A stretch of DNA of 62,908 nucleotides from a virus, in IMG/VR virus record IMGVR_UViG_3300010885_040694, positions 1 through 62,908 of that record. One strand, written 5' to 3'. Below are positions 2,471 to 26,247 of this stretch, piece after piece. Below the pieces are notes generated by a model, which saw nothing but the letters and a program-made list of their open reading frames with translations, did no database searches and was not told where the DNA came from. The stretch's first letter is position 1, and each line of letters starts with the position of its first letter. Made by a program: the position numbers and the translations under genes.

Positions 2471-2479
2471 GGAAATGAA

Positions 2480-4742: not shown

Positions 4743-4758
4743 TACAGAGGAAACACAC

Positions 4759-5473: not shown

Positions 5474-5476
5474 GAG

Positions 5477-5483: not shown

Positions 5484-5484
5484 T

Positions 5485-5509: not shown

Positions 5510-5510
5510 C

Positions 5511-5795: not shown

Positions 5796-5797
5796 AC

Positions 5798-6193: not shown

Positions 6194-6225
6194 ATTTTTC
6201 CTTACATTGTAAATATACACATATT

Positions 6226-6501: not shown

Positions 6502-6505
6502 ACCC

Positions 6506-6736
6506 ATGGCAAATGAAGAACTGAATCAAGAAACAACCGCAGTACCAGAAGCGGCCCCACAAACAGCACCTGCTGAAGAAAGTACAGATCTTACCATTAA
6601 TGATCTAAATGGTTTGAAATCAGTCATTGACGTTGCAACACAACGCGGTGCATTTAAAGCAGGCGAATTAGAAGCAGTCGGTAAGATTTATAACCGTCTG
6701 GACAAATTCTTAGCAGCAGCAACCAAAGGACAATAA
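6506..6736 (+). CDS. Conserved phage hypothetical protein, 76 aa
   Basis: ATG 6506 follows a strong AAGGAG at 6492-6497. The first 30 residues are a low-complexity acidic, alanine/proline-rich stretch (TTAVPEAAPQTAPAEES). The remainder (LNGLKSVIDVATQRGAFKAGELEAVGKIY) is a helical unit that I recall as conserved in marine T4-like phages. It sits two bases before the next gene, which also has alanine/lysine-rich low complexity, so the pair may work together. Function unknown. Confidence 0.65.
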   Translation: MANEELNQETTAVPEAAPQTAPAEESTDLTINDLNGLKSVIDVATQRGAFKAGELEAVGKIYNRLDKFLAAATKGQ

Positions 6737-6738
6737 TC

Positions 6739-7365: not shown

Positions 7366-7666
7366 AAAAATATTCAAGCCCGCAAAGGACGTGATCAGCC
7401 AATGGCCCGAAGTATTCGAAGATTTATATATGAATACTATGCCGGTAGATTATCTCCAATGCGTGGTTATTGAATTTAATGATGGTAGAATATGGGAGAT
7501 TGACATCACTGATCACTTAAACGATCATGATAACAAACCATTAGCAGAACGTCTAACCAAGACAATTAAAGAATATCAAAACGAAATCAAGAAGATTGAT
7601 TTTAAAATCGACATTGAACGATTAAAGAACGATGTCGAAGGTACCACTCGACGGTATTTTAAATAA
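7358..7666 (+). CDS. Conserved phage hypothetical protein, 102 aa
   Basis: It begins with GTG at 7358, overlapping the end of the upstream gene by eight bases. The protein has SQWPEVFEDLYMNTMPVDYL followed by IEFNDGRIWEIDIT, a short beta-hairpin-like unit, and an acidic-basic helical C-terminus. I do not know its function. It is the last plus-strand gene of this module. The giant minus-strand gene ends only three bases beyond its stop, so the two converge with no room for a classical terminator. Confidence 0.65.
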   Translation: MPKKIFKPAKDVISQWPEVFEDLYMNTMPVDYLQCVVIEFNDGRIWEIDITDHLNDHDNKPLAERLTKTIKEYQNEIKKIDFKIDIERLKNDVEGTTRRYFK

Positions 7667-7669
7667 CTG

Positions 7670-10600
7670 TTACCACTTAGATGCAGCAAGTCCATTGTTA
7701 GATGTTGCAAAGTAAAGATTTGTTCCACCTTGATACGCTGCTGCTCCAAAATATCCCGGATTTCCGGGACCAGTAGAGCCAGCATTAGTAAACTCAAAAC
7801 GCCAGTGTGTATATCCATTGGATACCGTGATAAGTGCATCAGCAGAATACGAGTTGAACCAGTCAGGGGCAGAGACAATAAAGTTTCCCTGACAATACAC
7901 TGAAACTGAATTATCTGCTGAACAAAATACTTTGAAATAATAAGGTCCACCATTGGTGTAAGGATAGCGTCTATAGATCATGAATGTTCCTGCAGGTGTA
8001 GCTGCGGCTGATCCGTACGCGGCTAAAGTTACTGGACTACCAATTGCAAATTCCGGAGGAAAAGATGCATCTGGGCACACAACTAATGCTGGAGACTGTA
8101 CGTCAAACGTAACAAAATTACCAAGTACTCCGTACAGATACCCATCACCTGCACTTGGGGACAAAATGGCGAGACTATTGTATGTGCCAACTGGCCCATT
8201 TGCCAAAACAGTACATGTAAGTTCCCCTTGACCATCTGAAATATATGTTTGGGGCGCAATACCAGCATAAGGCTGACCGATGCCCGGCGTTGACGAACTG
8301 TATGTGCCTGTATCGTTTGTAACACTTATAAAATAAGTAGATAACTGCATGCTACTCGGTGCGCCAGTTATTGTTATAGTAATAGTCGCTCCTTGTATTG
8401 GGGCAAGATCACTCCACGTAGCAGTTATATCTGGAACAACTGTAAAACCTATCCATATTTGATTTGATCCGCATGCAGATTCAGGAGCAGTTGTGCCGCT
8501 GGCCCATCTTCCAGATCCACCGGCAGTTGTACCACTTGTAGTGTTGGTGTACCATGCCTGTAGACCACCATCATACTTGCCAACAGGGAGTTGACCATAA
8601 AATCTGTTGCGGCCAGCTCGCCAATACTTTGTTTCGTATGAACCGTAAGTTGGGTCAGTGCCGGCCCAGGGAGCAGCAAATCCGGTTGCATCAGATGTGA
8701 AACTACTGACAGGACACAGTTTTGGATCAGTCTTCCTTGGGTTGTATTCGGCTCTTGTTTCAGCCCAAATACCACGGCCGCCGAGTCCGTAAATATCCTG
8801 ATCTTCTGTCTGAAATAACCAAAATCCACCCACAGTGTTTGGTTCCATATTATAAATCTCTGTTCTAACACGTGAATTTTTCTTAAGTGTTCCACGACTT
8901 GTATTGACTATACTAAAAGGATCTGATCCGTCAGTCCAGCCAGTGCCGGTGCTTGTGACAACACCGTTGTTTAATAATCGAAATGTGGGAACTCGAGGAA
9001 CACCAGTTACCGAAATCAGTGCAGTCTTTACACCGGCTGGGTCATTTGACGCAATTGATAAAGTAGTTAGACTGGTGCCGATATTTGAACGAGTAAAAGT
9101 ATAGGTTGTGCTTGCAGAACTGTTTGCTGCCACTGACGTTATGCTTGGTCCTGTTCTTGCAATGTTGGTTATAAAAACACCACCGTTACCAGTTACTGAA
9201 CTAATTGTCAGTGGTGCATTACCATAATTATAAAATGTTATAGTAACCTCTGAACTGGCTTTACCAACTTCGGCAGAGATACTCGACTGACTCGGTGTTG
9301 CAATTAAATTAGGAACTGCTTTGGTTGCTGTCACTGCTAGGCCAAACGAAGAAGAATTTACTGTACCAATTTTAGGATGAGTTCCTATAATACTAATAGC
9401 ACTTGTTCCCGATGCAGTATCGGTACCATAATATGAATAAGTAGCACTGGCAGTTTTTGTATAGCCGATTCCGACACCATTAGCACTGATGGTACCGGTT
9501 ATTGATCCGGCACTAGACTGAATAGAGCCTGCATAGCCCACAAAGAAACCACTCAATGTTGCAGGGGAGTTACCTGTATTGGTCAATGTAAGTGTTGTAC
9601 TTCCACTACCTGATACTCCTGATCCCCCGATAAACGAAAAACTCACACTGGGCGGGCTGGCGGTAAATGTTAGAACAACTGTAGGAGTTTGAATTTGTAC
9701 CGTAATAGTTGTTGAGGTGATCCTATATGTTGGGCCTGTCGCTGCTCCGCTACCATCAATGGTTCCCGCATTAGATACTACTTTTAACACAACCGTTGAT
9801 GATCTAGGATATTGTCCGTTACTACTACCAACAGATATTTTTAGATCAAAATTAGTACCGTTGGTAACAGTACGAGGAGTTGGTAGAGTATAGTTACCAG
9901 AAGCTTGTGTAATTATGGGATTAGGGAATCCCGTTGGAGGTAATATGGTCCATGTATCAAAAGATTGATCAGACGCTGATGTGTCAATATAAAATCCATA
10001 AATGATCAAATCAACTCCGCCGGTCAATGCTGCTGATGTGACCCTCCATGTGCCCTCAGAACCATTACCATTACCTGCAACACAGGTAAGTTCTGTACTT
10101 GGTCCAACAACAGTACCCGCAGTGTTGGTCACTGTTATGCCCGGAGTATCTGTTTTAGAACTATCAGTCACAGTGAGCGGTGTTGGTGCAGTTACTTTAT
10201 TGCCGCCGCCGCTACCGTCTGGTGATCCCACTGCCGATATGGTAAATGTTTCAGTACCTTCTGTGGCTCGATCCGGATTTGTTACAATGCTGATACTAGA
10301 TGTTGAATTGGCATAAGAACCACTGTTGTTAGAAGTTCTGGTCAATGTTTTATAACCCTGAACATTGGTTCCAGCTGTCCAACCTGTTTCAACAAAGTCA
10401 TTGAGACCTGTTGTAGTTGTAGCGGTGATTGTCCAAGTTATGGTATTGCCTGTATAATAGTTTGTTGCGGTAAAATCAAAGTAGGCAGTTACACTTTGTT
10501 CTGTAATTGTGCTGGGAGCTCGCACTGCAATAGAATAGGCAGCAGTAATATAAATTGGAGTTCCGCTTTCTGTAAATCCGTTTGATGGAGTTGACACAGG

Positions 10601-13600
10601 ATCCGTTGGGGCTGCTACATATACTGCGCCGCCTGCACCTGGACCTTTGGGCATTTTACGAGATATTGTACTGGTAAATGTACCATCAACTCCGTCATAG
10701 TTTGTTGAATTACCATCATTAAATGCATCAACAAACTCAATTTTAAATGTAATTGAAGTTGCTCCGCCTTGAGAATTATCCGCCACATCGCTTTTAGCTG
10801 TAATTCTATAATAATTTGCAGAATAGATAGGATCTGTACTGTTACGAATGTAAACTGGGCTAGTTGTATTATAGGCATTGGTTAATGCATAAAAATTAGA
10901 TTTTCCAAAAGACGGATTAGCTGCCGTAACTGCTGTTAGTAAATCATTCCATGATTGATTTTGATTTTTACCTAGATCTGGATTTTGTGTACCGCCAGAG
11001 TGAGCTGCGGTAAAATTATAAGTACTGCCAGCATTAAAGAAATACCTAGCGTCGTTGGCTGAAGTAAATGTTATAGTTGACTCGTAGTAGGCATAATTTT
11101 TCCAACCTGCGCCTGTACCCGCTGTGCCAGTATAAGATGCATATGTTTCTGTTTGCGGAGTATAGGCAACTGTGGCCAACTGGTTGGCTGCAACTGTATT
11201 TCTATTTGTATAGATGCCAGTGGCTAGAGTCTCATACGCTGAAAAAAGCACAGCAAGTTCTTTATCACTAGTAGCAACATCTGTGATGGTAGGAGCAGCA
11301 CCATTTTGATGTGTATAGGCCTTGGTAATATCTTGCCTTAACAAATCTAACTGCACCTCGGTAACTTTATTGTACTGACTTACTGGACTTGATACCGGAG
11401 TTTGTCCGTAGCCGTTGACTGCTTGCGCAGTTCCGGTAGTGCTGGTTCCCAATGCTGCCACTGTTTGTGATCGAGCACTGTTGTAGGATGTTGGAGTTAT
11501 TTTTGTTCCATATAAAGGGCTTAGATTTACAGGAGTTAGACTGGTATCATTTATGGTAACTGAACCACTGGTAGCCACTGGTGTGCCACCGCTGGTAAGA
11601 CTAATCGATGCAGTAAATGTCTCAGCTCCCTCGGTAGTAAGGTCAGCTGTCGGCGTTACTGAGAATGATCCGGAATTACCAGAAATAAAGATGTAACCAC
11701 TATTGATGCCAAAATCGCCTGCATTGGTTATTGACCAAAATATTATTGTATTATCTGTTAGACCAGTAGTGGTCACTGTAAATATCAGTGGCGTTCCTTC
11801 ATTAACCGAAGCGGCTGCTGCCGCTACTGCATAAGTGGCAGATGGTAAACTAGTGTCATTAATAGTTACACTAGAACTATAGGCTTCTTCTTTTCCTGTT
11901 ACACTTCCTGTTAGTATGCTTATTCTAAATGTTTCTGAACCTTCAGTAGTTGCATCAGCAACAGGAGTAACAAAAAATGAACCGTTACCGAGACTGTTGA
12001 TAGTAAAAAATCCGTTGGCTGCTGTTAAATCCAATGCGGTTGCTGTTCCGTCTTTGTATGCCCAATACAATGTTGTTCCGTTTGCAACATTAGTAGTAGT
12101 CACATTAAAAGTTAATGCTACTCCCTCGTTAACGGAAGTGGTAGTAGGCGCTACTGAATATGTAGGCGGAACAATTGGTGTTAGACTGGTATCATTGATA
12201 GTAACCGGGTTACTGGTCGCCACATCAGATACGCTTATGGCACTGGTTCGTATACCAACTGTAAATGTCTCTGCACCTTCAGTGGTAAAATCAGCGGTAG
12301 GGGTAACTGAGAATGTGCCTGTGTTGCTGTTAATGATAACAGTGCCCGTACTGTTAACAAAATCACCCGAATTGGTTAATACCCAGTATAACGTTGTAGG
12401 AGATGGTAGATTAGTAGTGGTCACAGTAAAGGTCAGTGCGGTACCTTCATTGACCGAAGTAACGCCCGCAGGTGGTGCAACTGCATATGTTGGGGGCGGT
12501 GTTAGACTGGTATCATTGATAGTAACTAGACTACTAGTAGCCACAGGAATGCCAGTGATTGTGCCGGTATAAATTGATGCTGTAAATGTTTCTGCGCCTT
12601 CAGTGACAATATCAGCAGTAGGGGTAACTGAGAATGTGCCTGTGTTGCTGTTAATGATAACAATGCCCGTACTGGTGGCAAAATCGCCGGTATTGGTCAC
12701 AGCCCAATTTAATTGTGTGGCGTTTGCAACATTAGTAGTGGTCACGGTGAATACCAGTGATACACCTTCATTGACTGATGTGACACCCGCTGGCGGTGCA
12801 ATTGCATATGTTGGAGAAGGAGCCATACTAGTATCATTGATAGTAATCGTGCTACTGTTAGCTACAGGAGTACCGGTGATACTACCCGTATAAATTGATA
12901 CTATAAATGTCTCCGCACCTTCGGTGACAAGATCAGCTGTTGGTATTACTGAAAATATGCCACTGCCGCTATTGATAGTAACAGTACCGGTACTAGTGGT
13001 AAAGTCGCCTGAATTGGTCAGGGCCCAATTTAATATTGTTCCATTTGTAACAAGAGTAGTGGTCACTGTGAATACCAGTGATGCACCTTCGTTAACTGAT
13101 GTAATGCCCGCTGGTGGAGCAACTGTATATGTTGGACTTCCCGGGGGTGTTAAACTAGTATCATTGATAATAGTAGCCGGTGAACTGGTGACCACCGGAG
13201 TACCAATAATACTACCCGGGCGTACCGACACAGTAAATGTTTCTGCACCTTCGGTGGTAAAATCAGCTGTTGGTGTAACAAAAAATGACCCTGCACTATT
13301 GGTAATAGGAAAACTCCCATTACTGCTACCAAAATCACCCGAATTAGTAACTGTCCAGTAGTATGTACCGGGTGGTATGTTAGATCCAGATACAGTAAAT
13401 GTCAGTGATGATCCTTCGTTAACCGAGGCAGCAGCAGGTGTAAGTATATATATTGGAGTTAGTACTGAAGCTACCGGATAACTAACTGTCCAAAATAGCT
13501 CTGTGCCAACTGGAACATTAGTAGTGGTCCAATTAAATGTTAGTGATGATCCTTCGTTAACCGAGGAAGTAGCGGAGGTAAGTGCGTATGTGGGTTGTGC

Positions 13601-16600
13601 AAGAATATCATTGATAGTAACTGCGCCACTAGTAGCCACTGGTGTGCCACCGCTGGTAAGACTAATCGATGCAGTAAATGTCTCAGTTCCTTCGGTAATA
13701 AAATCTAGCGTTGGAGTAACTAAAAAATTGCCTGCATTACTGTAAATAACAACCGTACCTGCACTAGTACTAAAATCACCGGAATTAGATACTGACCAAA
13801 ATAATTGAGTGCCGTTCGGTACATTGACTGTGGCTATGTTGAATCGTATTGCAGTACCTTCGTTAACTGTGTTACCAACAGGTGTTATTGAGTATGTGCG
13901 AGGTAAACTAGTGTCATTAATTGTAATTGGATCACTAGTGACAAATACTGTGGGTGTAACAGGCCCATTAACTGGGCTAGAAAGAATTGATACTGTAAAT
14001 GTTTCTGCGCCTTCGGTGACAAGATCAGCTGTTGGTGTGACAGAAAATACTCCGGTGTTATCAGTAACAGTAAAACTACCGTTACTAACAGCAAAGTCAC
14101 CTGGTCTAGATAATGACCAATAAAGAATTGGTGTATTTGTATATGCTTCGGCTACCTGTACAATAGTTACAGAAAACCACACCGTTGCACCTTCGTCAAC
14201 TGACATTGCAGAAGGCACAACAGACACGCTGGTAATGGCAGTACTATTATCAATAATAGCAACATAGTTACTGATAATTTTAACTTCACTAGTATAACTG
14301 GTTTCACGAATTTCTATTTTGTAGAATTCAAAACTTTCAGTTGTAAAATCTGCTCTAACAGTTCGAGTAATAGTGGCCCTATTACCTGTTATTGTGGCAG
14401 TTCCTTGATTTTGAAGATCTGTAAAATCATCAGCTGTTACTCCGGTACCTAAATAAGAATTTGTAGTCCAATACACCACAGTACCGTCTGGTGCATTAGT
14501 AGTAGTCAACACAAACGTTGATGTTGGGCTTGAATAATTGGATGATTCGTAAGTAAGCCCAGAAGTAATTGCAGGATCGCCGGTTGAAGAAAATGACACG
14601 TATGTTATCAATGATCCAATGGGTGTTAGGCTGGTATCATTGATAGTAACTGCACTACTGGTAGCTACAGGAGTACCAGCAATACTACCCGTGTAAATCG
14701 ATGCTGTAAATGTCTCCGCACCTTCAGTTTTAAGATCAGCGGTAGGGGTAACTGAGAATGTACCACTGCCGTTTATACCTGTAGTAGTAATAGTAACAGT
14801 ACTAGTACTGGTAACAAAATCACCTGCATTGGACAGAGCCCAATTTAATTGAGTTCCATTTGCAACATTGGTAGTAGTCACCGTGAATGTTAACGCGGTT
14901 CCTTCATTAACTGAAGTAGCGCCCCCTAATGGTGCAACTGCATATGTTGGACTGCCTGGAGGTGTTAAGCTAGTATCATTGATAGTAACTGCAACATATC
15001 CCACTTGATTCGAGAGTCCACTATCTGTATAGACTCTAACTGAAGTATATTCTGTGCCTTCTGTTAAAGCGTCGACTCCAATAGAGACTCCAAACGATCC
15101 AGCGCCACTGTTAATCACAAACTGTCCAGAATATGGAGAATAATCCATTGATCCTGCAACAGGTGTCTGGCCTGATGTTGGGGCGGCCATTTGCCAATAC
15201 ATTGGAGTTCCATCAGACACATTGGTTGTGGTGACTGATACGGTTACTGCACCGCCTTCGTTAACTGTAACTGACCCCGGAGACACTACATATGTTGGGA
15301 TTATTGGGGTTGTACTAGTATCTGCAATACCAATATTTCCACTCACAATCTTGACTGCACTAGTATAACTAGTTTCACGAATCTCTAATTGAAACAGTTC
15401 AGAGCCTTCGGTAAATAAATCCGCTCTAGCAGATCGAGTAATAGTAGCGGTCCCACCTCTTATTGTAGCAGCGCCTTGTAAGGTATTGTCAGTGAAGTCA
15501 TTAGCGGTTAACGTACCGCTAACACCCAATGTAGTCCAATACACCACAGTACCATCAATAGCATCGGTGGTGGTCAATGTAAATGTTGCTGTATATTGTC
15601 CTTCAAACAATACAGTATTAGCAGGACCGTAATCGGTTACACCAACCAATGAAACATATGTTATCGGAACCGGTGTTGTACTAGTATCTCCAATAGCAAT
15701 AAAGGTTGAACTACTAGTGCTAGTGATCATAACTGAGCTAGTGTAACTGGTTTCACGAATTTCTAAGCGAAATAGTTCAATTCCCTCAGTTGTTAGATCT
15801 GCTCTAGCACTTCGAGTAATAACAGCTTGGTTATTTTGTACAGTGACTGTGCCTTGGATTAGACCGTCTGTAAAGTCATCAGCAGTTATTGTACCGTAAC
15901 CAGGCTGACCCAATGTAGTCCAGTATAATATTGTACCGTTGGCAATATTGGCGGTAGTTAGTGTAAATGTTGCTGTATACTGACCTTCGTTTATATAGTA
16001 GTCAAGTGACGAATTGGTTACTCCAACAAACGATACATATGATGCCAGTGCAGATGCTGCTCTAGTCACTGTGATGGTATATGTCTTGGTAGTAGTACCA
16101 TCTTGGGCTGTGACAATTACTGTGATTGTATTTGAACCAACACTTAAAGTAATAGCACTGGAAGCAGAACCAGAAGTCACTGCAATGCCGTTGACAGTTA
16201 TGGTGGCATTTGATTCAGTGCGTGTTGGTGTAACGGTAACTGAGCTGATTGCATTTACTACAGAATCTGTATAAGTTATTGTACTCGAACTAAATGATGG
16301 GGTCAATGTTCCATTTGAGATTGTCAGTGAAGATAATGTTGCATCACTGCTCAGTGTCGGTGATGCTCTAGTCACTGTGATGGTATATGTCTTGGTAGTG
16401 CTATCTTGCGCAGTGACAATTACTGTGATTGTATTTGACCCAACATTTAAATTAATAGCACCAGAAGCAGAACCAGAAGTCACTGCAATGCCGTTGACAG
16501 TTATGGTGGCATTTGATTCAGTGCGTGTTGGTGTAACAGTGATTGAACCAACGCTGTTTGCTACAGAATTTATATACGTTATTGTACTCGAACTAAATGA

Positions 16601-19600
16601 TGGGGTCAATGTTCCATTTGAGATTGTCAGTGAAGATAATGTTGCATCACTGCTCAGTGTCGGCGAACCTCGAGTTACCGTAATAGTATATGTCTTAATA
16701 GTGCTATCTTGGGCTGTGACAATTACTGTGATTGTATTTGACCCAACATTTAAATTAATAGCACTGGAAGCAGAACCAGAAGTCACTGCAATGCCGTTGA
16801 CAGTTATGGTGGCATTTGATTCAGTGCGTGTCGGTGTAACGGTAACTGAGCTAACACTATTTGCTACCAAATTTGTATAAGTTATTGTACTTGAACTAAA
16901 TGATGGTGTCAATGTTCCATTTGAGATTGTCAGTGAAGACAGGGTAGCATCACTACTTAACGTTGGTGTTTTACTAGAATCTCCAATACCAACATAGCCA
17001 TATGTGCTAGTAGTGCTGGTAATTACAGGAGTACTGGTGTAACTGGTTTCACGAATTTCTAATTGAAATAGTTCAGATCCCTCTGTTGTTAGATCTGCTC
17101 TAGCACTTCGAGTAATAACCGCTCTGTTATTCTGTACAGTGACCGTGCCTTGGATTAGACCGTCTGTAAAGTCACTAGCGTTTACGTTATAGTCGACAGG
17201 GGCAACAGTGGTCCAATATAATGTTGTGCCATTTGGTATCCCAATAGTAATCAGTGTAAATGTTGCTGTATACTGACCCTCGGCAATATACCAATCTAAG
17301 CCAGGGGCGTCGGTTACTGCTATGAATGATACGTATGTTGCTATAACAGGAGTGATGCTGTTATCAATAATGCCAATAGATCCATCAGCACTGCTGCTGG
17401 TACTAATAGCTATTACTGGATCATTAACAGTAGGATAGCGAATCTGTAATTTAAATAATTCAGATCCCTCTGTTGTTAGGTCTGCGCTGGCAGTTCGAGT
17501 AATTATAGCAGTATTGCCCGTTATTCTAGCTGTGCCCGTTAGTGTATTATCAGTGAAATCACTTGCAGTAAGTGTACCCAGTATAGGAAGAGTTGTCCAA
17601 TAGATATCTACACCGTCCGAGACCCCTGTAGTAGTCAATGTAAATGTTGCTGTATACTGACCTTCATATATTCCGTAATTCGATGCCGGCTGATTAGTTA
17701 CACCCACAAATGATATAATATATGACGAAAAATCACTTGCTGCTGGCAGTTCAGCAGCAGCAACATTTATAGCAAATGTACTGGCAGCTGTGGTAAAATT
17801 ATGGTCCAATACTCCGGGTGTTACTGTTCCTTCTGTGACTGTGGTCGAACTCACTCTGCTTGGAGGCAAACTGTTGATAAACGGCGTTACCATGTTACTG
17901 GTCACTAGGGTGTCATTTGTGTTTTGCACAAAATAAAATTTACAACTTGACGAATTTAGTGACGTATACCATGGCCCTTGAGTTCCGTTGTAAAGATATT
18001 GATATCTAGGGCTAGCGGCAATTAGATTGGTAGTGTTTTTAGTAGAACCTGTTTGATCGCTAGGATCAGAAAATAGATTTACAGCCGTTTGCAAAGCTGA
18101 GGGTATTACAAGATCAGTATTATTATATACTAAATCCATGGGGCCGCACATGTTAAGTACTGCTTTTGGCCACTTACCAGAACTAGTTCCATACTTGCCA
18201 ACAGCCTGCACCGCAAGGTGACCACCTGCGCTTGCGCCAGCTACTATCAGTCCGTAATTAGCCACATAACTGAAAATTGTTTGCCATGATGCACTTACAG
18301 TTGCACCTGCTCCGTTTACCATACAATATCTTAAAATAGTTTCAATATCGGTGATAGCGTTAGGGTAGCCTCCTGTTCCATCTCCACCGTAGCCGTATGA
18401 CGAGGGCAATGTTAATCGATACGCACAATTCACTACTACATACCCAGCTTCGGCTATTTTGCGGATGCTAGCAGCAGGGCTGTCAGTGTCATTGTTAGTA
18501 AATGCTGCTTGGTTGGAAGTAAAACCCGTGGCACTTTTTGCACCGCCTGACCAACCACCACCGTGTATCCAAACAACTACGCCCTTGATAACTCCGCTGG
18601 GCACTAGAAGGTCCACTCGTTGTAGGAAATTATTGCCGTATGGCACTTCAGTTGTTGTGATAGTCACCGAAGTTGGGCTGGGACTAATAGTTATACTTAC
18701 AGTACTGGAAGTAGTTTGAATATTTCCGTTGTAACCACCTGTTCTCAATTGTAATGTGCTGGCACGTGTGCCGGCTGTGCCGTGACCCACTGTTCTAGTC
18801 CAGGTGGCGGTGTTGTTGTTAACTGTTAATACTTTTTGTGTGACACTGTCAACAAAGTCAGCGCTGACACTGGTTCCTGATTCTGTTAGATACACAACTG
18901 AGCCGTTGGGCACATTGGTGGTGGTTATTGTATAAGTTACAGTACCGCTAGAATTTAATGAAGCAGAACTGGCACTAATGTTAAAGGTCGGATTTGGAGC
19001 ATATAATGATAAATTTGCACTACCTTGCAAGGACCGAAAATCGTCATACGAATTTGTCGTTGCGGTGCTTTCATCTATCAATCCGGTCTTTGCTATAGAT
19101 TTAACATAACTATACATAGCTGCTGGAGTCATAGTTGGGTTAAGTTCTAATAGCGTAGCTACTACACTCACTATCTGTGGTGAGGCCATGGATGTACCAA
19201 CATAAGCGGAAACTGTATTGTCGGTACCACCTCTTGGGTCGGCTACGTCACCAAAATTATTTGTCGAAGAAACTATTCCGCTACCGGGTGCCCATATGTT
19301 AACACCAGGTCCTTTCTGCGAGCCTTGATCAGGGGGTTCATTACCCTGTTGTGATATATTTCCAACATTAAAAATATATGGTAAATTACCGGTTAGTGGT
19401 CCGAACCAAACTGATCGATTTATGTAGTAGTCACTCCCGGCATGGGTAACCTTATTGTTAAAATCTAACCCACCCGGAACATCTGTTCTTCTACCGTCAT
19501 TGGCTGCTGCAAAACTTATGTGTATTCCGTCGGCAATCGCATCTGATAAATCTGCCTGAAATGGTGCGTATGATGTGAAAACTTTTATGCCAATATCGTT

Positions 19601-20608
19601 AGGACCGTATGGTGGTATAATTGACATTGCGGGGTAATTAAACCCAAGTTCTACCCAAGTTTTTGTGCCGTTTCCTGTGGCTGTCCAAGGACCGGTATAA
19701 ACTGTGCCTCGATGAGTAACAGTTCCATTGCCAGTATTGAAATCTGCTACAGATATAACATAAGACGACCCATATGAATTATTAACTACTGTTGGGTTTT
19801 TTACTCCGGTGTTGGGATTAACACTTTTAGAATTGTGCCACGCTCTTATATAATCATAGAAGTATTCTGTGCCTACACCGCCGTTGCCGCCATCGCCAAA
19901 TGCACCAAGACTGTAAATATTTGCATCAATGGCCAAACTGTGAGTGTTCCCGCCGGCAATACCAGCAACGTGTGTACCGTGCTTGCCTTCGCCTGATGTG
20001 TCTGTATAATTGTATACGCCGGCGGCGGTGCCGCGAACTGTGGGGTCAAGGGAATACCAATTGTATTGATTTACTCTAGAAGTTCCGGTTCCGTCTGGAT
20101 TAGTTTTAAATTCGGGATGATCTGCTTTGACTATTCCGTCAACGATGACAATGTCAACATTTTTACCAGACAAATTATAGTTTATTGTAGCAGTTTGTTT
20201 TCGAGCGGCGCTGTCGGTGTAGGGATAAGTGCCTGACGGTACCCAGCCCGCGATTTTGCTACCTAATAATGTTCTGTACACACCCCAATTTTTATCAGTG
20301 GCAAAAGCACTTCCATAACCGTCCGCTTTTGAAAAATTTGCTGTCCGAGACCAAGTAGGTACTGGTACTATTCCTAATTCTTTAGCTGTTAGCGATACAT
20401 CCCATACTCGGGGATCTAGTCGAATCTGGGCCGCTTCTTGATCAGTTAACAAGTAATGAGTATTCCTACTAATAGGTCTACGATTAACAACGTCAACTAC
20501 ACGATTAGGAATATATAGATCCCCTCCCTCAGTTTCCATATCCTGATAGAAGACATCTAGATCCTCGTGCCTATGCAGTGTTACAATATATTCTTTTAGT
20601 TCGCTCAT
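7670..20608 (-). CDS. Giant virion protein: subtilisin-like protease + esterase + cadherin-like and Calx-beta arrays (4312 aa)
   Basis: Residues 1-140 are a propeptide-like region (EYIVTLHRHEDL). A subtilase domain follows with Asp157 (VDIVIVDG), His210 (KHGTHVAG) and Ser473 (GTSMASP), all intact. Around 645-945 is an alpha/beta-hydrolase esterase with oxyanion HGGGW at 682-686, Ser793 (GASAG), Asp899 and His936. Calx-beta-like modules (VNEG...TEGAETF...INDTS) fill about 960-1210 and 1515-3030, broken at 1212-1515 by three cadherin-like repeats starting LSSDATLSSLTISNGTL. Residues about 3040-3350 match the N-terminus of the 1193-aa neighbour. Sandwich domains of abnormal-spindle type (about 3650-3870) and a PA14-like tail follow. 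No signal peptide is present, so it should reach the surface on the virion. It ends the tail module and is best read as an adhesin or depolymerase; the exact place on the tail is inference. Confidence 0.85.
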   Translation of the reverse strand: MSELKEYIVTLHRHEDLDVFYQDMETEGGDLYIPNRVVDVVNRRPISRNTHYLLTDQEAAQIRLDPRVWDVSLTAKELGIVPVPTWSRTANFSKADGYGSAFATDKNWGVYRTLLGSKIAGWVPSGTYPYTDSAARKQTATINYNLSGKNVDIVIVDGIVKADHPEFKTNPDGTGTSRVNQYNWYSLDPTVRGTAAGVYNYTDTSGEGKHGTHVAGIAGGNTHSLAIDANIYSLGAFGDGGNGGVGTEYFYDYIRAWHNSKSVNPNTGVKNPTVVNNSYGSSYVISVADFNTGNGTVTHRGTVYTGPWTATGNGTKTWVELGFNYPAMSIIPPYGPNDIGIKVFTSYAPFQADLSDAIADGIHISFAAANDGRRTDVPGGLDFNNKVTHAGSDYYINRSVWFGPLTGNLPYIFNVGNISQQGNEPPDQGSQKGPGVNIWAPGSGIVSSTNNFGDVADPRGGTDNTVSAYVGTSMASPQIVSVVATLLELNPTMTPAAMYSYVKSIAKTGLIDESTATTNSYDDFRSLQGSANLSLYAPNPTFNISASSASLNSSGTVTYTITTTNVPNGSVVYLTESGTSVSADFVDSVTQKVLTVNNNTATWTRTVGHGTAGTRASTLQLRTGGYNGNIQTTSSTVSITISPSPTSVTITTTEVPYGNNFLQRVDLLVPSGVIKGVVVWIHGGGWSGGAKSATGFTSNQAAFTNNDTDSPAASIRKIAEAGYVVVNCAYRLTLPSSYGYGGDGTGGYPNAITDIETILRYCMVNGAGATVSASWQTIFSYVANYGLIVAGASAGGHLAVQAVGKYGTSSGKWPKAVLNMCGPMDLVYNNTDLVIPSALQTAVNLFSDPSDQTGSTKNTTNLIAASPRYQYLYNGTQGPWYTSLNSSSCKFYFVQNTNDTLVTSNMVTPFINSLPPSRVSSTTVTEGTVTPGVLDHNFTTAASTFAINVAAAELPAASDFSSYIISFVGVTNQPASNYGIYEGQYTATFTLTTTGVSDGVDIYWTTLPILGTLTASDFTDNTLTGTARITGNTAIITRTASADLTTEGSELFKLQIRYPTVNDPVIAISTSSSADGSIGIIDNSITPVIATYVSFIAVTDAPGLDWYIAEGQYTATFTLITIGIPNGTTLYWTTVAPVDYNVNASDFTDGLIQGTVTVQNNRAVITRSARADLTTEGSELFQLEIRETSYTSTPVITSTTSTYGYVGIGDSSKTPTLSSDATLSSLTISNGTLTPSFSSSTITYTNLVANSVSSVTVTPTRTESNATITVNGIAVTSGSASSAINLNVGSNTITVIVTAQDSTIKTYTITVTRGSPTLSSDATLSSLTISNGTLTPSFSSSTITYINSVANSVGSITVTPTRTESNATITVNGIAVTSGSASGAINLNVGSNTITVIVTAQDSTTKTYTITVTRASPTLSSDATLSSLTISNGTLTPSFSSSTITYTDSVVNAISSVTVTPTRTESNATITVNGIAVTSGSASSAITLSVGSNTITVIVTAQDGTTTKTYTITVTRAASALASYVSFVGVTNSSLDYYINEGQYTATFTLTTANIANGTILYWTTLGQPGYGTITADDFTDGLIQGTVTVQNNQAVITRSARADLTTEGIELFRLEIRETSYTSSVMITSTSSSTFIAIGDTSTTPVPITYVSLVGVTDYGPANTVLFEGQYTATFTLTTTDAIDGTVVYWTTLGVSGTLTANDFTDNTLQGAATIRGGTATITRSARADLFTEGSELFQLEIRETSYTSAVKIVSGNIGIADTSTTPIIPTYVVSPGSVTVNEGGAVTVSVTTTNVSDGTPMYWQMAAPTSGQTPVAGSMDYSPYSGQFVINSGAGSFGVSIGVDALTEGTEYTSVRVYTDSGLSNQVGYVAVTINDTSLTPPGSPTYAVAPLGGATSVNEGTALTFTVTTTNVANGTQLNWALSNAGDFVTSTSTVTITTTGINGSGTFSVTPTADLKTEGAETFTASIYTGSIAGTPVATSSAVTINDTSLTPIGSLITYVSFSSTGDPAITSGLTYESSNYSSPTSTFVLTTTNAPDGTVVYWTTNSYLGTGVTADDFTDLQNQGTATITGNRATITRTVRADFTTESFEFYKIEIRETSYTSEVKIISNYVAIIDNSTAITSVSVVPSAMSVDEGATVWFSVTIVQVAEAYTNTPILYWSLSRPGDFAVSNGSFTVTDNTGVFSVTPTADLVTEGAETFTVSILSSPVNGPVTPTVFVTSDPITINDTSLPRTYSITPVGNTVNEGTAIRFNIATVNVPNGTQLFWSVSNSGDFSTSAGTVVIYSNAGNFLVTPTLDFITEGTETFTASISLTSGGTPVATSGAVTINDILAQPTYALTSATSSVNEGSSLTFNWTTTNVPVGTELFWTVSYPVASVLTPIYILTPAAASVNEGSSLTFTVSGSNIPPGTYYWTVTNSGDFGSSNGSFPITNSAGSFFVTPTADFTTEGAETFTVSVRPGSIIGTPVVTSSPATIINDTSLTPPGSPTYTVAPPAGITSVNEGASLVFTVTTTLVTNGTILNWALTNSGDFTTSTGTVTINSGSGIFSVIPTADLVTEGAETFIVSIYTGSITGTPVANSSTITINDTSMAPSPTYAIAPPAGVTSVNEGVSLVFTVTTTNVANATQLNWAVTNTGDFATSTGIVIINSNTGTFSVTPTADIVTEGAETFTASIYTGTITGIPVATSSLVTINDTSLTPPPTYAVAPPAGVTSVNEGTALTFTVTTTNLPSPTTLYWVLTNSGDFVNSTGTVIINSNTGTFSVTPTADFTTEGAETFTVGIRTSAISVSDVATSNPVTINDTSLTPIVPPTYSVAPTTTSVNEGVALTFNVTTTNVANGTTLYWAYKDGTATALDLTAANGFFTINSLGNGSFFVTPVADATTEGSETFRISILTGSVTGKEEAYSSSVTINDTSLPSATYAVAAAAASVNEGTPLIFTVTTTGLTDNTIIFWSITNAGDFGINSGYIFISGNSGSFSVTPTADLTTEGAETFTASISLTSGGTPVATSGSVTINDTSLTPVNLSPLYGTKITPTSYNSARSQTVAALGTSTTGTAQAVNGYGQTPVSSPVSQYNKVTEVQLDLLRQDITKAYTHQNGAAPTITDVATSDKELAVLFSAYETLATGIYTNRNTVAANQLATVAYTPQTETYASYTGTAGTGAGWKNYAYYESTITFTSANDARYFFNAGSTYNFTAAHSGGTQNPDLGKNQNQSWNDLLTAVTAANPSFGKSNFYALTNAYNTTSPVYIRNSTDPIYSANYYRITAKSDVADNSQGGATSITFKIEFVDAFNDGNSTNYDGVDGTFTSTISRKMPKGPGAGGAVYVAAPTDPVSTPSNGFTESGTPIYITAAYSIAVRAPSTITEQSVTAYFDFTATNYYTGNTITWTITATTTTGLNDFVETGWTAGTNVQGYKTLTRTSNNSGSYANSTSSISIVTNPDRATEGTETFTISAVGSPDGSGGGNKVTAPTPLTVTDSSKTDTPGITVTNTAGTVVGPSTELTCVAGNGNGSEGTWRVTSAALTGGVDLIIYGFYIDTSASDQSFDTWTILPPTGFPNPIITQASGNYTLPTPRTVTNGTNFDLKISVGSSNGQYPRSSTVVLKVVSNAGTIDGSGAATGPTYRITSTTITVQIQTPTVVLTFTASPPSVSFSFIGGSGVSGSGSTTLTLTNTGNSPATLSGFFVGYAGSIQSSAGSITGTISANGVGIGYTKTASATYSYYGTDTASGTSAISIIGTHPKIGTVNSSSFGLAVTATKAVPNLIATPSQSSISAEVGKASSEVTITFYNYGNAPLTISSVTGNGGVFITNIARTGPSITSVAANSSASTTYTFTRSNIGTSLTTLSIASNDPAGVKTALISVTGVPRVPTFRLLNNGVVTSTGTGWTDGSDPFSIVNTSRGTLKKNSRVRTEIYNMEPNTVGGFWLFQTEDQDIYGLGGRGIWAETRAEYNPRKTDPKLCPVSSFTSDATGFAAPWAGTDPTYGSYETKYWRAGRNRFYGQLPVGKYDGGLQAWYTNTTSGTTAGGSGRWASGTTAPESACGSNQIWIGFTVVPDITATWSDLAPIQGATITITITGAPSSMQLSTYFISVTNDTGTYSSSTPGIGQPYAGIAPQTYISDGQGELTCTVLANGPVGTYNSLAILSPSAGDGYLYGVLGNFVTFDVQSPALVVCPDASFPPEFAIGSPVTLAAYGSAAATPAGTFMIYRRYPYTNGGPYYFKVFCSADNSVSVYCQGNFIVSAPDWFNSYSADALITVSNGYTHWRFEFTNAGSTGPGNPGYFGAAAYQGGTNLYFATSNNGLAASKW
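11571..13686 (-). repeat. Dispersed exact repeats within the Calx-beta array
   Basis: A 55-base stretch is identical at 11571-11625 and 13632-13686, and a 45-base stretch is identical at 12297-12341 and 12618-12662. Many shorter near-identical blocks occur at each INDTSLTP module boundary. The array is therefore homogenised at DNA level and prone to unequal recombination. Confidence 0.8.
16065..16970 (-). repeat. Three tandem ~300-bp repeats coding for cadherin-like domains
   Basis: Units begin at about 16065, 16371 and 16674 (periods 306 and 303 bases). A 65-base stretch is identical in all three (16161-16225, 16464-16528, 16767-16831). At protein level each unit reads LSSDATLSSLTISNGTL through TYTITVTR, the cadherin-like beta-sandwich (PF12733) pattern. 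Identity at the DNA level suggests recent duplication or gene conversion. Confidence 0.85.
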
Positions 20609-20613
20609 GATAG

Positions 20614-20620
20614 TATTTAT
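20614..20620 (-). promoter_or_regulatory. ATAAATA motif directly before the giant gene
   Basis: Read on the minus strand, CATAAATACTATC lies directly before the ATG at 20608 and closely resembles T4 late promoters. It also includes the TAA stop of the upstream gene. By T4 spacing the transcript would begin at or near the A of the ATG, leaving no leader, so this may be coincidence. No Shine-Dalgarno is visible. Confidence 0.3.
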
Positions 20621-22665
20621 GGGGTTACACTTGTGTCGTTAATAGTTATTAGACCAGAAGTAAAAACGGCCGGACCATCAATACTACCAGTTCGAATTGA
20701 TACTGTAAATGTTTCTGCACCTTCGGTTGTGAGATCAGCAGTGGGACTAATTGAAAAACTGCCGCTGTTGCTGTTTACAATAAAAGAACCAGAGCTGCTG
20801 GCAAAGTCGCCAGCACTGACAATAACAGTGTTGGCAGTGGCTTGAATATTTCCGTTATAACCGCCTGTTCTCAATTGTAATGCACTAGTTCGTAAACCGG
20901 TGATTCCTGCACGTACAGTTCTAATTAGACTTGCAGCACCACTGTAAATTGTTAATGCAATCTGCGTAACTCCGTCAACAAAATCAGTACCTATACTAGT
21001 TCCGGATTCAGTTAGATACACTAACGATCCGTCGGCGGCCCCAGTCATAGTAATTGTATAGGTAATATTTTGTAATGGCGTTGCAGTAGTGGTGTTAGGT
21101 GTAATGGACATGCTGGTCGGATATGCTGCAAAGAGATATCGATTAGGAGCACCCTGTAGTGCAAAATAATAATTTATAGCATTTGAATCATACATTTGTC
21201 CCGTTTTGGCATTGCTGGTAATATAACTCAATGCGGCTGAGGGTGTTAGCAACGGAGTTACTTCTAACATTGTTGCAAGTACACCAGTCACTTGTGGACT
21301 TGCAAAACTAGTGCCATTAGCTTGGTATATTTTATAACTTGAGCTACGTGTGTCAGCAACAGTATTTGCAATAGATTTCCAATTGTTATTAACAGCACTT
21401 CTTATACGAGATCCGGGAGCAAATATATCAATCCTAGGACCACAATTACTGTAATCTGCTTTTTCTTCCCCAATAAAGTTGCCGGCTGCTCCAATTGCTC
21501 CCACACTGATCACGTTAGGAACAGCAGCAGGAACAGATCCTCGTTGATAAAAATTTGTTTGAGTTCCAAGTGCCGAGTCGTATGTAATTGTATTATTATA
21601 ATCAGCACTGCCCGGTAGAACTACTTTAAAACTATCATTTCCGGCTGCTGCTACAATTATAATACCAGCAGCTATGCAATCTGCAACATCGGCTTCGAAT
21701 GATGCAGACCTACTAGGGAGGTATACAGTTCCATTATACACTTCAACCCCATATGATCGTAATTGTGCATCAGTAAATGGACCATTATAAGTAGTACCTT
21801 GATATACCAACGATGTTATTGTGGTACTTACGGTGGTAGCAGTGGCGAGCGTAAAACTACAGTTCATTACTGTGGGATTTTTTTGCCCTGTGGCAGCATT
21901 GATTGATTTAGACTGGTGCCATACTTTAGCATAATCAAATTGAAAACTGCTAGTTACTATAGGAGCGACACCGTATACGTAGATACTATATATGTCGGCA
22001 TCCCTTGCCCACCCCTGAGTGTTGCCTGCTACAATTGCTGCACAAAAAGTTCCGTGATAGTCACTGTCAATATCTGCTGGGGTATATGAATATGTTCCGG
22101 CAGCGCCACCTGTTACTCTTGGATTAAGCGCATACCAATTGTATTGTTTTATTCTTGAGCCGCCGGTGCCGTCTGAATTTTTTGCAAATTCTGGATGATC
22201 TATTTCTAGTCGGCCGTCCATGATAAGTACATCAACATTTTTTCCGCTAAATGGGGCCGTTGCTGTGCCAGTAACTTCGGCTGTGGCAGCAGATCCCCAA
22301 TTTGGTCTTTGTTGACCCTCAGTGACTCTCAATAATCCCCAATTTAATTGTCCTGTAGCTAGTGTATCAGATTTACTCCATAAAGAAGATGTTTGTGTCC
22401 ACGCGGGTCGTATTTCAATGCCACGTGCTTCCAATGTCAACTCAACTGCCAAGACTCTGGAATCTTGATAAAGCTGTTCAGCTTCTTGATCAGACAGCAT
22501 GTAGTGAGTATTTCTACTAACTGGCCGTCTAAGACAACATTCAACAGGTCGGTTAGGAATATATAAACTACCACTGTGGGTTTCCATATCAGCGTAAAAT
22601 GATTCTAGATCATCAAACTGATGCAGTGTGACTATGTATTCTCTTAGAGTTGTTTCGCTAGTCAT
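20617..22665 (-). CDS. Subtilisin-like serine protease (S8), 682 aa
   Basis: A paralogue of the N-terminal part of the 4312-residue neighbour. Both begin with EYIVTLH, a propeptide-I9-like start, and share IPNRPVE/IPNRVVD and SRNTHY blocks. The triad is Asp150 (LIMDGRLEIDH), His204 (DYHGTFCAA) and Ser453 (NGTSFASPQ), so it should be active. After the protease comes one beta-sandwich ending TGGYNGNIQ near residue 602. The protein then finishes with only the second half of a Calx-beta module (SGSFSISPTADLTTEGAETF to INDTSVTP). No signal peptide is seen. It lies 8 bases upstream of the giant gene, and its ATG directly follows the stop of the 1193-aa gene, so all three are co-transcribed. A virion-borne protease acting on host surface protein, or maturing neighbouring fibres, is inference. 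Confidence 0.85.
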   Translation of the reverse strand: MTSETTLREYIVTLHQFDDLESFYADMETHSGSLYIPNRPVECCLRRPVSRNTHYMLSDQEAEQLYQDSRVLAVELTLEARGIEIRPAWTQTSSLWSKSDTLATGQLNWGLLRVTEGQQRPNWGSAATAEVTGTATAPFSGKNVDVLIMDGRLEIDHPEFAKNSDGTGGSRIKQYNWYALNPRVTGGAAGTYSYTPADIDSDYHGTFCAAIVAGNTQGWARDADIYSIYVYGVAPIVTSSFQFDYAKVWHQSKSINAATGQKNPTVMNCSFTLATATTVSTTITSLVYQGTTYNGPFTDAQLRSYGVEVYNGTVYLPSRSASFEADVADCIAAGIIIVAAAGNDSFKVVLPGSADYNNTITYDSALGTQTNFYQRGSVPAAVPNVISVGAIGAAGNFIGEEKADYSNCGPRIDIFAPGSRIRSAVNNNWKSIANTVADTRSSSYKIYQANGTSFASPQVTGVLATMLEVTPLLTPSAALSYITSNAKTGQMYDSNAINYYFALQGAPNRYLFAAYPTSMSITPNTTTATPLQNITYTITMTGAADGSLVYLTESGTSIGTDFVDGVTQIALTIYSGAASLIRTVRAGITGLRTSALQLRTGGYNGNIQATANTVIVSAGDFASSSGSFIVNSNSGSFSISPTADLTTEGAETFTVSIRTGSIDGPAVFTSGLITINDTSVTP

Positions 22666-25600
22666 TTAATATCCCGCAGCACTTCCGTTGTTTTTAAAGT
22701 CCCATACCACTGTGTTTCCTGACAGTATCTGCACCGAAACCCAAGCGGGATTGTTTAAAAATGTTGGTTGCTGATTATCACCGTTCTTAAAAAGAATAAT
22801 AAGTTTAAGTTTACCTTCTGCTGTGGCTATTACGTTACCAGCAGTTACTACTGCATTGAGATTGGCATATGCTGAATTGCGAGCAGTTTGTGTCTCATAG
22901 TTGAATCCCGAATATATCCAGACCTCGTCATCTGCCCAAATTCTAAAACTATAAGTACCATTGGGCTGAAGGCCGGACACTGTCCTAAAATATTTGTGGA
23001 CACTGTTTGGGTCCGACGGCAAAGTAGTACTGTACTGAGCCCATGTTACTCGTTGATTGTAAACTGACTGGCTTGGCTCGGGCATTCCAACTACTGCGTT
23101 AGGCTGCGTTGAATGGTCGCCAAATACTGGCCCAGAGGTTGGAGTAATTGTGACTGCATTTGATTTATATACTACACCCTTGTATGTTTGGTTCACAACA
23201 AATGTCCAAACACCCGGCTCAGGGGAATAGACAGTCCACGTGTTTGTGCCGTCAGCACCAAGAGTAACATTGGTGCCTTGGTTTGAGTACAGTGTTGAAC
23301 CCTGGGGTTGATCATCATACCTGACTGAGCTAGGATCTATATTAACTAAAGCATTTTGAACGCCTCCCGTCACCGACGATGTAATTTTAGGCCAGTCTCT
23401 GACATAGTATCGAGTGTCACCTACTGTATGCGGGAAATGCGGGGACAGAGGAGTAATAGTTAATGTTAAATTGGGGAATGTTTCCATTAGCACATAGCCA
23501 TGATCGTCGCTGCTTTTAAATGTATAGTCGTACCATATTTGAGTACCGTCGTCATTCTTACCAACGGGTACCCAAGCATACAATCGACTGATACCAACAT
23601 CCCATGCTGCGGTACTTGATCCCGCTGTCCAGAATTCAAGTTTTCCACTACCGTCGGCATTCCTTGGCAATAGTTTTGATGCAAATGCCGCTGCAGGTGT
23701 AGTGCCAGCTGGCACACCCGAAACAACCCCGCTGGCCTGCTTATGGTACACATAGGCAATTGCACCGGGTTCTGCACCGGTCACAAAAGATTCTATAGTA
23801 CCGTTGCGTTTAATTGGTGTGGGGATATTTGCGTCAGTGGGATGTCCGTTAAACAAATCAGTATTGATTACATAATAAGGGATCAACGACTGCGATGTCA
23901 TGCTAAATGACACAGTTTTAGAGTTATTTGGTGCTGCTGCATTACTGGTAATAGTAATGGTGGCAGGATCAGTACCAACTCTGCTACGTTTAGAAGTTAT
24001 GGTAACTGTTTGTGTTGCGCCAACAGGAATGCTTGCAAAGCTAGTAGGTGACACAGTGTATGTACTGTAAGAATTTTGACCTGTAATTGTGATACTGGAA
24101 ACTGTCAAAGCAGCACTGCCGCTGTTGTTGATGGTAAACGTTGTGGTTGACTCCACATTAATCAATCTAGGTATAGCCACAACCGAAGTAGTTGCAACTG
24201 TTACATTTGCCAGTGATTGAGTGCCGGTAACTGTGGCTGTGATATTTTTAGTTCCCGCTGTACCACAGTCAATAGCTATAACCGGACTGGTAGTTGACGG
24301 CACTATTAAGCCTGAAAATTTAATTTGAAATTCTCTAAAGGCAGAGGGTGCAATAGTCAATCCGCTGGGATTATTTGTAATTGTGGGTGTAAGATTGCCA
24401 ACTGCCGAAATGCTTACAGCAGGATTACCTAACGTGATGGTAGCATTACCTGTGCTATTAGTTATTCTAATAGTTTGATCCACAGTGCTACCTGCCGTGA
24501 CTCCATCCGAAGCAAAGGTTGTTGTATAGGCCAATAGCGGACTAGTTGTTATTCCAAATGTTGCTGTTATCACAGTCACTGCAATGTTGGCTGTTTTATT
24601 TGTCCCAGCTACTGGTCCGCCACCCAGAGTATCATTGCCATCAGAAGTGATGGTGACCACTGCTGTTTGCGCTCCAACAGTTGGGCCAGCAAATTTAACA
24701 GTGAATGTTTTAGATTGACTTGTGGCAATAGACGTGGCACTAAATGCGGGCGCTCCGGACATGGCAGTAAAATCTGCAGAGTAGTCAGTTAATGATGCTC
24801 CCTTGTTAATTGAAATATTTGAAATATTCAATACTTTTGAACCAGTGTTGGTCACTGTGACAGTTGATGCGCTAGAAGTGGCAATTGCTTCATTTTGAAT
24901 TGCTTGAGCAGTTGTTGAACTGATACTCATCGATGGCGTTGGCGTAACCGACGTATCGTTAATTGTCACTTGTGCTGTTTTTACTTCTCCTGCTTGGTAT
25001 CCATCAGATTGAATTGTAACTCTAGCAGTGAGTGTTAAACCCGGATTAGTCAATAAATCAGCTGCTATAGTAACCGGATATTGGTAACTAGCATACGTGT
25101 CGTTACCGGTAGTTGTAAATGTTTTTATACCGGTAGTTGATCCTGTTAAATGTGAATCAGACACCCCAGATATTTCTAACTGAAACGATTTACTAGAAGG
25201 ATAATTTCTAGAAACAAATGTAAATGTAACTGTTCCACCTTCGTCAATACTATTAACATTAGGAGTTAGTGTAAATGATGGTGATAAATTGACTGCGGTA
25301 CCGGAAGGCGACAGAACGCCAGTATTATAGGATGCCGGCGACGGTATAGTTAATACCCCATTTGATTTTGTTTCGCTAATAATGCTAGTTAATGTGCCAT
25401 CGATATAATCTGTGGCAATTCCGGGAATAGTAGTAGAGTCAATCCATTCAATTTTAAAACTTATAAAAGTTGCTGTTCCGGGCGTATTAGAGTTAGAATT
25501 TGCTCTAATTCGATAGTAGTTGTTAGAATATGGTGAAGGTGCAGTAAACAAAAATATAGGAGTTGCATTATCAGCAAGACCACCAGTGGTCAGTGCATAA

Positions 25601-26247
25601 AATTGTGCTTTACCAAATGATATTGTGCCGATGTTATTTAAGAATGCAGTCCAAGAATTATTCTGTGCTGCTGCATTTTGCGGGCTAGATGTGCCGCCGT
25701 CTCTTGAACTTCTAAAATTAATAGTGCCACCGCTATTAAAGAAAGCTCGGGCATTTACAGCACTGGAAAATGTAACATCTACCAATTGCTGTACTGCAAT
25801 TGACCACGGAGTTGTTGTGGTCTGTGTTCCGCTTGCAACAACCACAGGAGTACCAGGTTTCTGACTCCCTGCAAATAAATTTCTATTTGCAACAATATCG
25901 TTTGCGGCAGCAAGATACGTTTGATAAACCTGCGCAAAGGTAACTCGAGTTGCAGTGCTTGCTCCCACGTTGCCTGTTCCCGAAACATCAGGAATAGTTG
26001 ATGCACTGCCGACCTGATGAGTGAACGCTTTATTAATGTCAACTCTTAATTGATCCCACTGTGATTCTGTAATTGTTTGGTCGCCGGGACCAATTTCACT
26101 GGATAAAATTGATTGACCGTACCCGAAAGTTGGATCGGAAACATTGGTAATAGGATTAGTACCACCTGCTCCTAAAATGTTATAAACAATTTTTCTTAAA
26201 TTATTGTAATCTTCTCTAGAGATTGGAGAACCAATAGCAGCGGTCAT
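22666..26247 (-). CDS. Adhesin / tail-fibre-like structural protein, 1193 aa
   Basis: The N-terminal about 290 residues contain FGYGQSIL, then TESQWDQLRVDINKAFTHQ and VNARAFFNSGGTINFRSS. From memory this block recurs in structural proteins of marine T4-like phages, and it is duplicated in the 4312-aa neighbour. A Calx-beta-like module follows (about 325-432), then two or three abnormal-spindle-type immunoglobulin-like domains (about 432-790, with repeats such as SITIT and TSDGNDTLGG). The C-terminus is aromatic-rich, with LYAWVPVGKNDDG, and ends in a PA14-like segment (YSFRIWADDEVWIYSG) that could bind carbohydrate. The ribosome site AAAGGAT precedes ATG 26247. No enzyme motif is seen. A role as a host-recognition or decoration protein is inferred from its position after the fibres. 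Confidence 0.75.
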   Translation of the reverse strand: MTAAIGSPISREDYNNLRKIVYNILGAGGTNPITNVSDPTFGYGQSILSSEIGPGDQTITESQWDQLRVDINKAFTHQVGSASTIPDVSGTGNVGASTATRVTFAQVYQTYLAAANDIVANRNLFAGSQKPGTPVVVASGTQTTTTPWSIAVQQLVDVTFSSAVNARAFFNSGGTINFRSSRDGGTSSPQNAAAQNNSWTAFLNNIGTISFGKAQFYALTTGGLADNATPIFLFTAPSPYSNNYYRIRANSNSNTPGTATFISFKIEWIDSTTIPGIATDYIDGTLTSIISETKSNGVLTIPSPASYNTGVLSPSGTAVNLSPSFTLTPNVNSIDEGGTVTFTFVSRNYPSSKSFQLEISGVSDSHLTGSTTGIKTFTTTGNDTYASYQYPVTIAADLLTNPGLTLTARVTIQSDGYQAGEVKTAQVTINDTSVTPTPSMSISSTTAQAIQNEAIATSSASTVTVTNTGSKVLNISNISINKGASLTDYSADFTAMSGAPAFSATSIATSQSKTFTVKFAGPTVGAQTAVVTITSDGNDTLGGGPVAGTNKTANIAVTVITATFGITTSPLLAYTTTFASDGVTAGSTVDQTIRITNSTGNATITLGNPAVSISAVGNLTPTITNNPSGLTIAPSAFREFQIKFSGLIVPSTTSPVIAIDCGTAGTKNITATVTGTQSLANVTVATTSVVAIPRLINVESTTTFTINNSGSAALTVSSITITGQNSYSTYTVSPTSFASIPVGATQTVTITSKRSRVGTDPATITITSNAAAPNNSKTVSFSMTSQSLIPYYVINTDLFNGHPTDANIPTPIKRNGTIESFVTGAEPGAIAYVYHKQASGVVSGVPAGTTPAAAFASKLLPRNADGSGKLEFWTAGSSTAAWDVGISRLYAWVPVGKNDDGTQIWYDYTFKSSDDHGYVLMETFPNLTLTITPLSPHFPHTVGDTRYYVRDWPKITSSVTGGVQNALVNIDPSSVRYDDQPQGSTLYSNQGTNVTLGADGTNTWTVYSPEPGVWTFVVNQTYKGVVYKSNAVTITPTSGPVFGDHSTQPNAVVGMPEPSQSVYNQRVTWAQYSTTLPSDPNSVHKYFRTVSGLQPNGTYSFRIWADDEVWIYSGFNYETQTARNSAYANLNAVVTAGNVIATAEGKLKLIILFKNGDNQQPTFLNNPAWVSVQILSGNTVVWDFKNNGSAAGY

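Follow-up and report, generated by a model that had tools for sequence, protein, structure and literature searches.

The window, that is, the whole 62,908-nucleotide stretch of viral DNA that was analysed (IMG/VR record IMGVR_UViG_3300010885_040694), carries a long gene, P1, whose parts are listed in Table 1 together with the neighbouring genes P2 and P3. P1 closes a run of baseplate and tail-fibre genes, all on one strand, and is the last gene of a tail cluster with gp6-, gp7-, gp25-, gp5-, and tail-collar-like genes. The enzyme pair that had been picked out in a sequence-only reading of this DNA corresponds to residues 1 to 956 of the 4312-residue chain.

Table 1. Features of P1 and its neighbours, with positions in the window
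Feature	Position	Strand	Details
P1 ORF	7670..20608	-	4312 aa: prodomain, subtilase, esterase, repeat array, C-terminal tail-protein module
I9-like prodomain	20354..20608	-	P1 aa 1-85, b-a-b-a-b; weak PF05922 matches in homologues, model
Proteinase K-like subtilase domain	19049..20353	-	P1 aa 86-520; PF00082, structural match, phrog_9158
Asp157 codon	20138..20140	-	subtilase triad, P1
His210 codon	19979..19981	-	subtilase triad, P1
Ser473 codon	19190..19192	-	subtilase triad, P1
Beta-sandwich linker	18689..18973	-	P1 aa 546-640; L101 homology stops here (aa 639)
BD-FAE/HSL-type alpha/beta-hydrolase (esterase)	17729..18688	-	P1 aa 641-960; PF20434, model
Ser793 codon (nucleophile elbow)	18230..18232	-	esterase triad, P1
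Asp899 codon	17912..17914	-	esterase triad, P1
His936 codon	17801..17803	-	esterase triad, P1
Calx-beta-type beta-sandwich array	11540..17728	-	P1 aa 961-3023; 14/15 Calx-beta-type signatures
Three tandem cadherin-like domains (PF12733)	16061..16960	-	P1 aa 1217-1516
C-terminal module	7673..11539	-	P1 aa 3024-4312; P3 paralogue; separate gene in syntenic contig L215
P2 paralogous subtilase	20617..22665	-	682 aa, Asp/His/Ser intact, 8 bp upstream of P1
P3 tail-cluster protein	22666..26247	-	1193 aa, paralogue of the P1 C-terminal module

The first enzyme of P1 belongs to family S8. PF00082 matched it with an E value of 2.5e-19 and 63.9 bits (curated cut-off, 21.8), and the Asp/His/Ser order and the oxyanion Asn (N370) of S8 subtilases are present. 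Asp157 and His210 are invariant in the 108 homologues that cover them, as are Ser473 (110 of 110) and N370 (109 of 109). The model of the domain (pLDDT 82.8) has the subtilisin fold and matches aqualysin I and keratinase across residues 86 to 540 (VIA Z, 34.4; rmsd, 2.1 to 2.5 over 268 to 275 residues), and the phrog_9158 profile covers the N-domain and the subtilase at full length (residues 4 to 631; E, 4.9e-81). We read residues 1 to 85 as an I9-like prodomain, because the model gives them a b-a-b-a-b secondary structure, because PF05922 (Inhibitor_I9) showed weak matches in 8 of 14 homologous N-domains (best E only 0.003; none in the P1 copy itself), and because the match to mature proteinases begins at residue 86. 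A search of the PDB with an N-domain profile gave no meaningful match.

The second enzyme is a BD-FAE/HSL-type esterase with an intact Ser-Asp-His triad, predicted to hydrolyse esters. PF20434 matched with an E value of 3e-9 and 37 bits (curated cut-off, 26.8). The HGGGW oxyanion motif (H682 to W686) is matched in all 80 bacterial relatives, G791, S793, and G795 of the GxSxG elbow in 79 or 80, and S793 and D899 in 79, while the family His is offset by 5 columns from H936 in the MAFFT alignment. The assignment of H936 as the catalytic His was settled by the closer phage relatives: its column holds His in 12 of 13 of them, the exception being the Phe of the subtilase-less L192, and a (S/N/D)HN(L/F) motif keeps the His in every subtilase-joined chain, L186 too carrying it. 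Throughout the phage esterase clade, S793 and D899 do not vary. The AlphaFold model (pLDDT 77) also places H936 at the normal site. Strand 153-157 (model numbering) bears S793 at its tip, D899 follows strand 255-261, and H936 starts the last long helix; these are canonical positions, judged from secondary structure and not from atomic distances. HSL-type carboxylesterases and gut carbohydrate esterases were matched by the model with a VIA Z of up to 24.9, and a sequence search of solved structures with the P1 esterase gave no match. L192 encodes, at positions 2800 to 8826, a 2009-aa protein with a phage-type esterase, no subtilase, and a replaced catalytic His.

The sequence-only reading had claimed two intact triads on one chain, and this holds for all six residues (D157, H210, S473, S793, D899, and H936), which lie in subtilase or GxSxG contexts with their triads conserved; the structure predictions for which it called show canonical folds for both enzymes. 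Both domains score over the Pfam cut-offs, and neither can be explained by a chance motif match. The long array said to follow the enzymes is genuine as well, with 15 Calx-beta-type signatures and the three cadherin-like domains, and an adhesive function may be suspected from its fold type alone. Pfam matches of the array to AGS_C and V-set were set aside as low-complexity artefacts.

The joining of these two enzymes is not restricted to P1. When viral contigs were scanned with an alignment, esterases 39 to 45% identical to that of P1 came up, and 11 IMG/VR contigs (L186 to L191, L193 to L195, L198, and L199) carry subtilase and esterase on one ORF, or 9 distinct contigs after merging two identical pairs. 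The paired chains are about 1450 aa long and are colinear with P1 residues 1 to 946 at about 34% identity. Pairwise dN/dS at moderate dS was roughly 0.03 to 0.11 for the subtilase and 0.09 to 0.15 for the esterase, with a value of 0.21 for one near-identical esterase pair; the dS of the esterase pairs ranged up to about 1.3, and dS was saturated for deeper pairs, including those with P1. Both enzyme domains of the paired chains are under purifying selection. Such a conserved pairing suggests that the two enzymes may form a two-step tool through a bacterial outer coat. The idea of an esterase unique to the P1 phage (scans with one sequence as query were empty for viral contigs, phages, and plasmids) was abandoned when the alignment-based scan found these viral-contig relatives. 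Among isolated phages the P1 esterase has no relative.

The C-terminal module has a history of its own. P3 is a paralogue of residues 3034 to 4020 (28% across 1017 columns; E, 1e-46), and the contigs with fused enzymes end in a related C-terminal domain (hhalign, 99.7%), with stand-alone copies just upstream. Contig L215 is syntenic with the P1 phage at 78 to 87% DNA identity. There, P3 is followed directly by a gene equal to P1 residues 3024 to 4312 (73.7% identity); subtilase, esterase, and array are all missing between the two, and the C-terminal 1,290 aa of P1 are thus a gene in their own right. This arrangement indicates that the enzyme block, about 11 kb long, was either inserted or deleted here, in frame with a pre-existing tail gene; L215 positions 2 to 7392 represent a natural empty allele of the block. 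Tail fibres are usually anchored by the N terminus. Because L215 carries the C-terminal module as a separate gene, anchoring of P1 by the C terminus is more likely than by the N terminus, and the module is probably the attachment point on the particle. Neither the module nor P3 had a match among isolated phages.

The gene setting and one isolate point to the virion. In isolates, the subtilase family adjoins baseplate and tail genes, and the subtilase-plus-LamG protein of S-SCSM1 (SSCSM1_228) is noted as "virion protein" in its record. The S-SCSM1 paper reports 45 virion proteins identified by mass spectrometry. We counted 48 such tags in the record. They include NMNAT, which is not a structural protein, and a translational repressor, and they leave out several predicted baseplate proteins. 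From this mismatch, the tag follows detection closely, not exactly, and can be used as a near proxy; by analogy with the tagged homologue, P1 would be located in the virion. The virion-type protein family that the sequence-only reading had proposed is supported, as is a late tail-gene setting. Two further observations of that reading were also borne out, as no hydrophobic N-terminal signal peptide was seen in P1 and Pfam gave no lysozyme match in the gp5-like spike protein.

In the reading that we prefer, with a probability of about 0.58, P1 would belong to the virion of a T4-like (Kyanoviridae-type) phage, as an appendage of its tail or baseplate with two active hydrolases that digest the host surface, and would probably be anchored by its C terminus. 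This reading draws on the domain identities, the intact triads, selection, the conservation of the pairing, the position in the gene cluster, and a relative in which the C-terminal module is a gene of its own. The I9-like prodomain would fold and silence the subtilase and would probably be cut off by the subtilase itself. The long beta-sandwich stalk would then display the mature protease and the carbohydrate-type esterase away from the particle, to which the P3-like module probably attaches the chain. Where the appendage meets the cell surface, proteins would be cut by the protease and acyl groups stripped from a surface polymer by the esterase, both substrates being presumed, so that the outer layer is opened for adsorption. 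The sequential breakdown of a protein coat and an acylated glycan that the sequence-only reading had proposed is a conjectural form of this scheme.

The main rival is that the subtilase is only a virion-maturation protease, trimming its prodomain as well as the tail proteins next to it during assembly, and that any action on the host falls to the esterase in those chains that have one. The I9-like prodomain would suit such a role, most family members are standalone subtilases of about 555 aa that lie among tail genes and have no adhesive part, and both P2 and P1 adjoin tail proteins that they might cut. However, the cyanophage subtilases bear variable C-terminal modules (LamG, YHYH, hydrolases, and Calx-beta), as would be expected of a host-facing display platform, and at the L215 locus the P3 and C-terminal genes exist without a subtilase between them, although the rest of that genome may hold one. 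We consider a maturation-only protease unlikely, but it deserves to be taken seriously. It is much less probable that P1 acts outside the virion, freed at lysis to degrade host debris or extracellular matrix. Protease and esterase are ordinary secreted-enzyme folds, but the chain has no visible signal peptide, belongs to a same-strand tail cluster, has a homologue with a virion tag, and ends in a module whose paralogue is a tail-cluster protein nearby. We give slightly less credence still to the possibility that either the protease or the esterase is a pseudo-enzyme, decayed and retained as a binding domain. The wider clade does show such decay, L192 having kept the esterase fold and lost the catalytic His, but in every subtilase-esterase chain that covers them the triads are invariant, and the purifying selection on both domains is strong. 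An assembly chimera, which a single uncultured contig and a closest subtilase orthologue (L101) without an esterase might suggest, is for practical purposes refuted by the same join in the 11 other contigs and by a reading frame that is open across both junctions with matching GC.

The origin of the pairing can be addressed from the trees. The phage esterases form one clade separate from the bacterial ones (support, 100/99), with long branches present. The fused L187-type subtilases group with P2 (support, 97/91) and not with P1, and the P1 subtilase groups with that of L101, which is 63 to 64% identical up to P1 residue 639 and then continues without an esterase. A constraint uniting the fused chains with P1 and L101 was rejected with a p-AU of 0.004, for a group that was named after a tree had been seen. 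Because the fused chains group with P2 and P1 groups with the esterase-less L101, the esterase appears to have been transferred between subtilase lineages; a single fusion origin with vertical descent was rejected by the same placement and test. A second pairing chemistry is seen independently in the isolate S-MbCM7 and in contig L184, its IMG/VR relative (51% identity across the hydrolase), where the partner of the subtilase is a different alpha/beta-hydrolase. P2, directly upstream, is 43% identical to P1 and lies closer in the tree to the L187 chains with a fused esterase than P1 does. Contig L117 has two subtilases (467 to 2416 and 6199 to 8814), one of them fused to a YHYH domain.

It is tempting, if still somewhat speculative, to see in these chains a distinct class of adsorption appendage, in which a self-activating subtilase and a carbohydrate esterase were repeatedly joined on a C-terminally anchored chain, one esterase clade with two subtilase lineages and an unrelated hydrolase with a third. 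Such appendages would open composite protein-glycan coats, and the enzyme block would be an in-frame N-terminal cassette gained or lost on a tail gene.

The closest known proteins are the cyanomyovirus subtilisin-like proteins of T4-GC_292/phrog_9158 (S-H38, S-CREM1, Sf-FR1, S-RSM4, and P-SSM2), which are 30 to 41% identical to P1 and share its N-terminal domain, subtilase, triad, and tail-gene setting; unlike P1, they are usually standalone proteins of about 555 aa and have neither the BD-FAE esterase nor the long array. S-SCSM1 ORF228 resembles P1 as a virion-tagged subtilase on a long chain, but lectin-like domains (LamG) replace the esterase and Calx-beta array. The 974-aa chain of S-MbCM7 (ACG-2014h), a phage of Synechococcus WH7803, also has two hydrolase types, with GxSxG, Asp, and His motifs visible, whereas its hydrolase belongs to another subfamily and has its nearest kin in the S-ShM2 "gp7" C-terminal domain (41%). 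Bacterial BD-FAE/HSL esterases (the gut carbohydrate esterase 6tkx and EST2, 2hm7) share the fold, HGGGW, the GxSAGGH elbow, and the Ser-Asp-His order, but they are not joined to a phage subtilase and fall outside the phage clade. The acetyl-esterase tail protein Vi01_171c of ViI-type phage is thought to deacetylate a surface glycan (Pickard 2010, cited in PMC3121705) and would be comparable to P1 as a virion tail esterase acting on a surface glycan, the role proposed here for P1; it differs in its DUF303-type sialate O-acetylesterase motif, which is not BD-FAE, and the account in PMC3121705, as far as it describes this chain, reports no protease on it.

Cyanophage tail-cluster subtilases (T4-GC_292, an uncharacterised family) and phage-tail esterases are already known, each separately. 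As far as our limited literature searches show, the recurrent two-enzyme chain, its reassortment, and the presence/absence allele have not been described. The sequence-only reading had overlooked what is new here: the I9-like prodomain, the intact tandem subtilase paralogue upstream, the repeated reassembly of the pair, and the relative with the C-terminal module alone. The usual picture of a tail enzyme is a lone polysaccharide depolymerase or esterase. A conserved protease-esterase chain predicts host barriers of mixed protein and acylated glycan, and it gives the widespread, unassigned T4-GC_292 family a candidate function that is testable now in the isolates S-MbCM7, S-H38, S-CREM1, and S-SCSM1.

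A tRNA search of the window found none. On the minus strand, positions 33403 to 47733 encode a baseplate-type protein of 4776 aa that matches FG-GAP repeat and CBM_5_12, and a QueE-like radical SAM gene (2480 to 3334, plus strand) adjoins the tail cluster, a synteny that is kept in L215. Elsewhere, the S-MbCM7 chain (L012, 9992 to 12913) is annotated as hypothetical. The S-ShM2 "gp7 baseplate wedge initiator" (L185, 7128 to 8849; 573 aa) carries a C-terminal alpha/beta-hydrolase that shares about 41% identity with the S-MbCM7 one, and relatives are found in 65 phage records.
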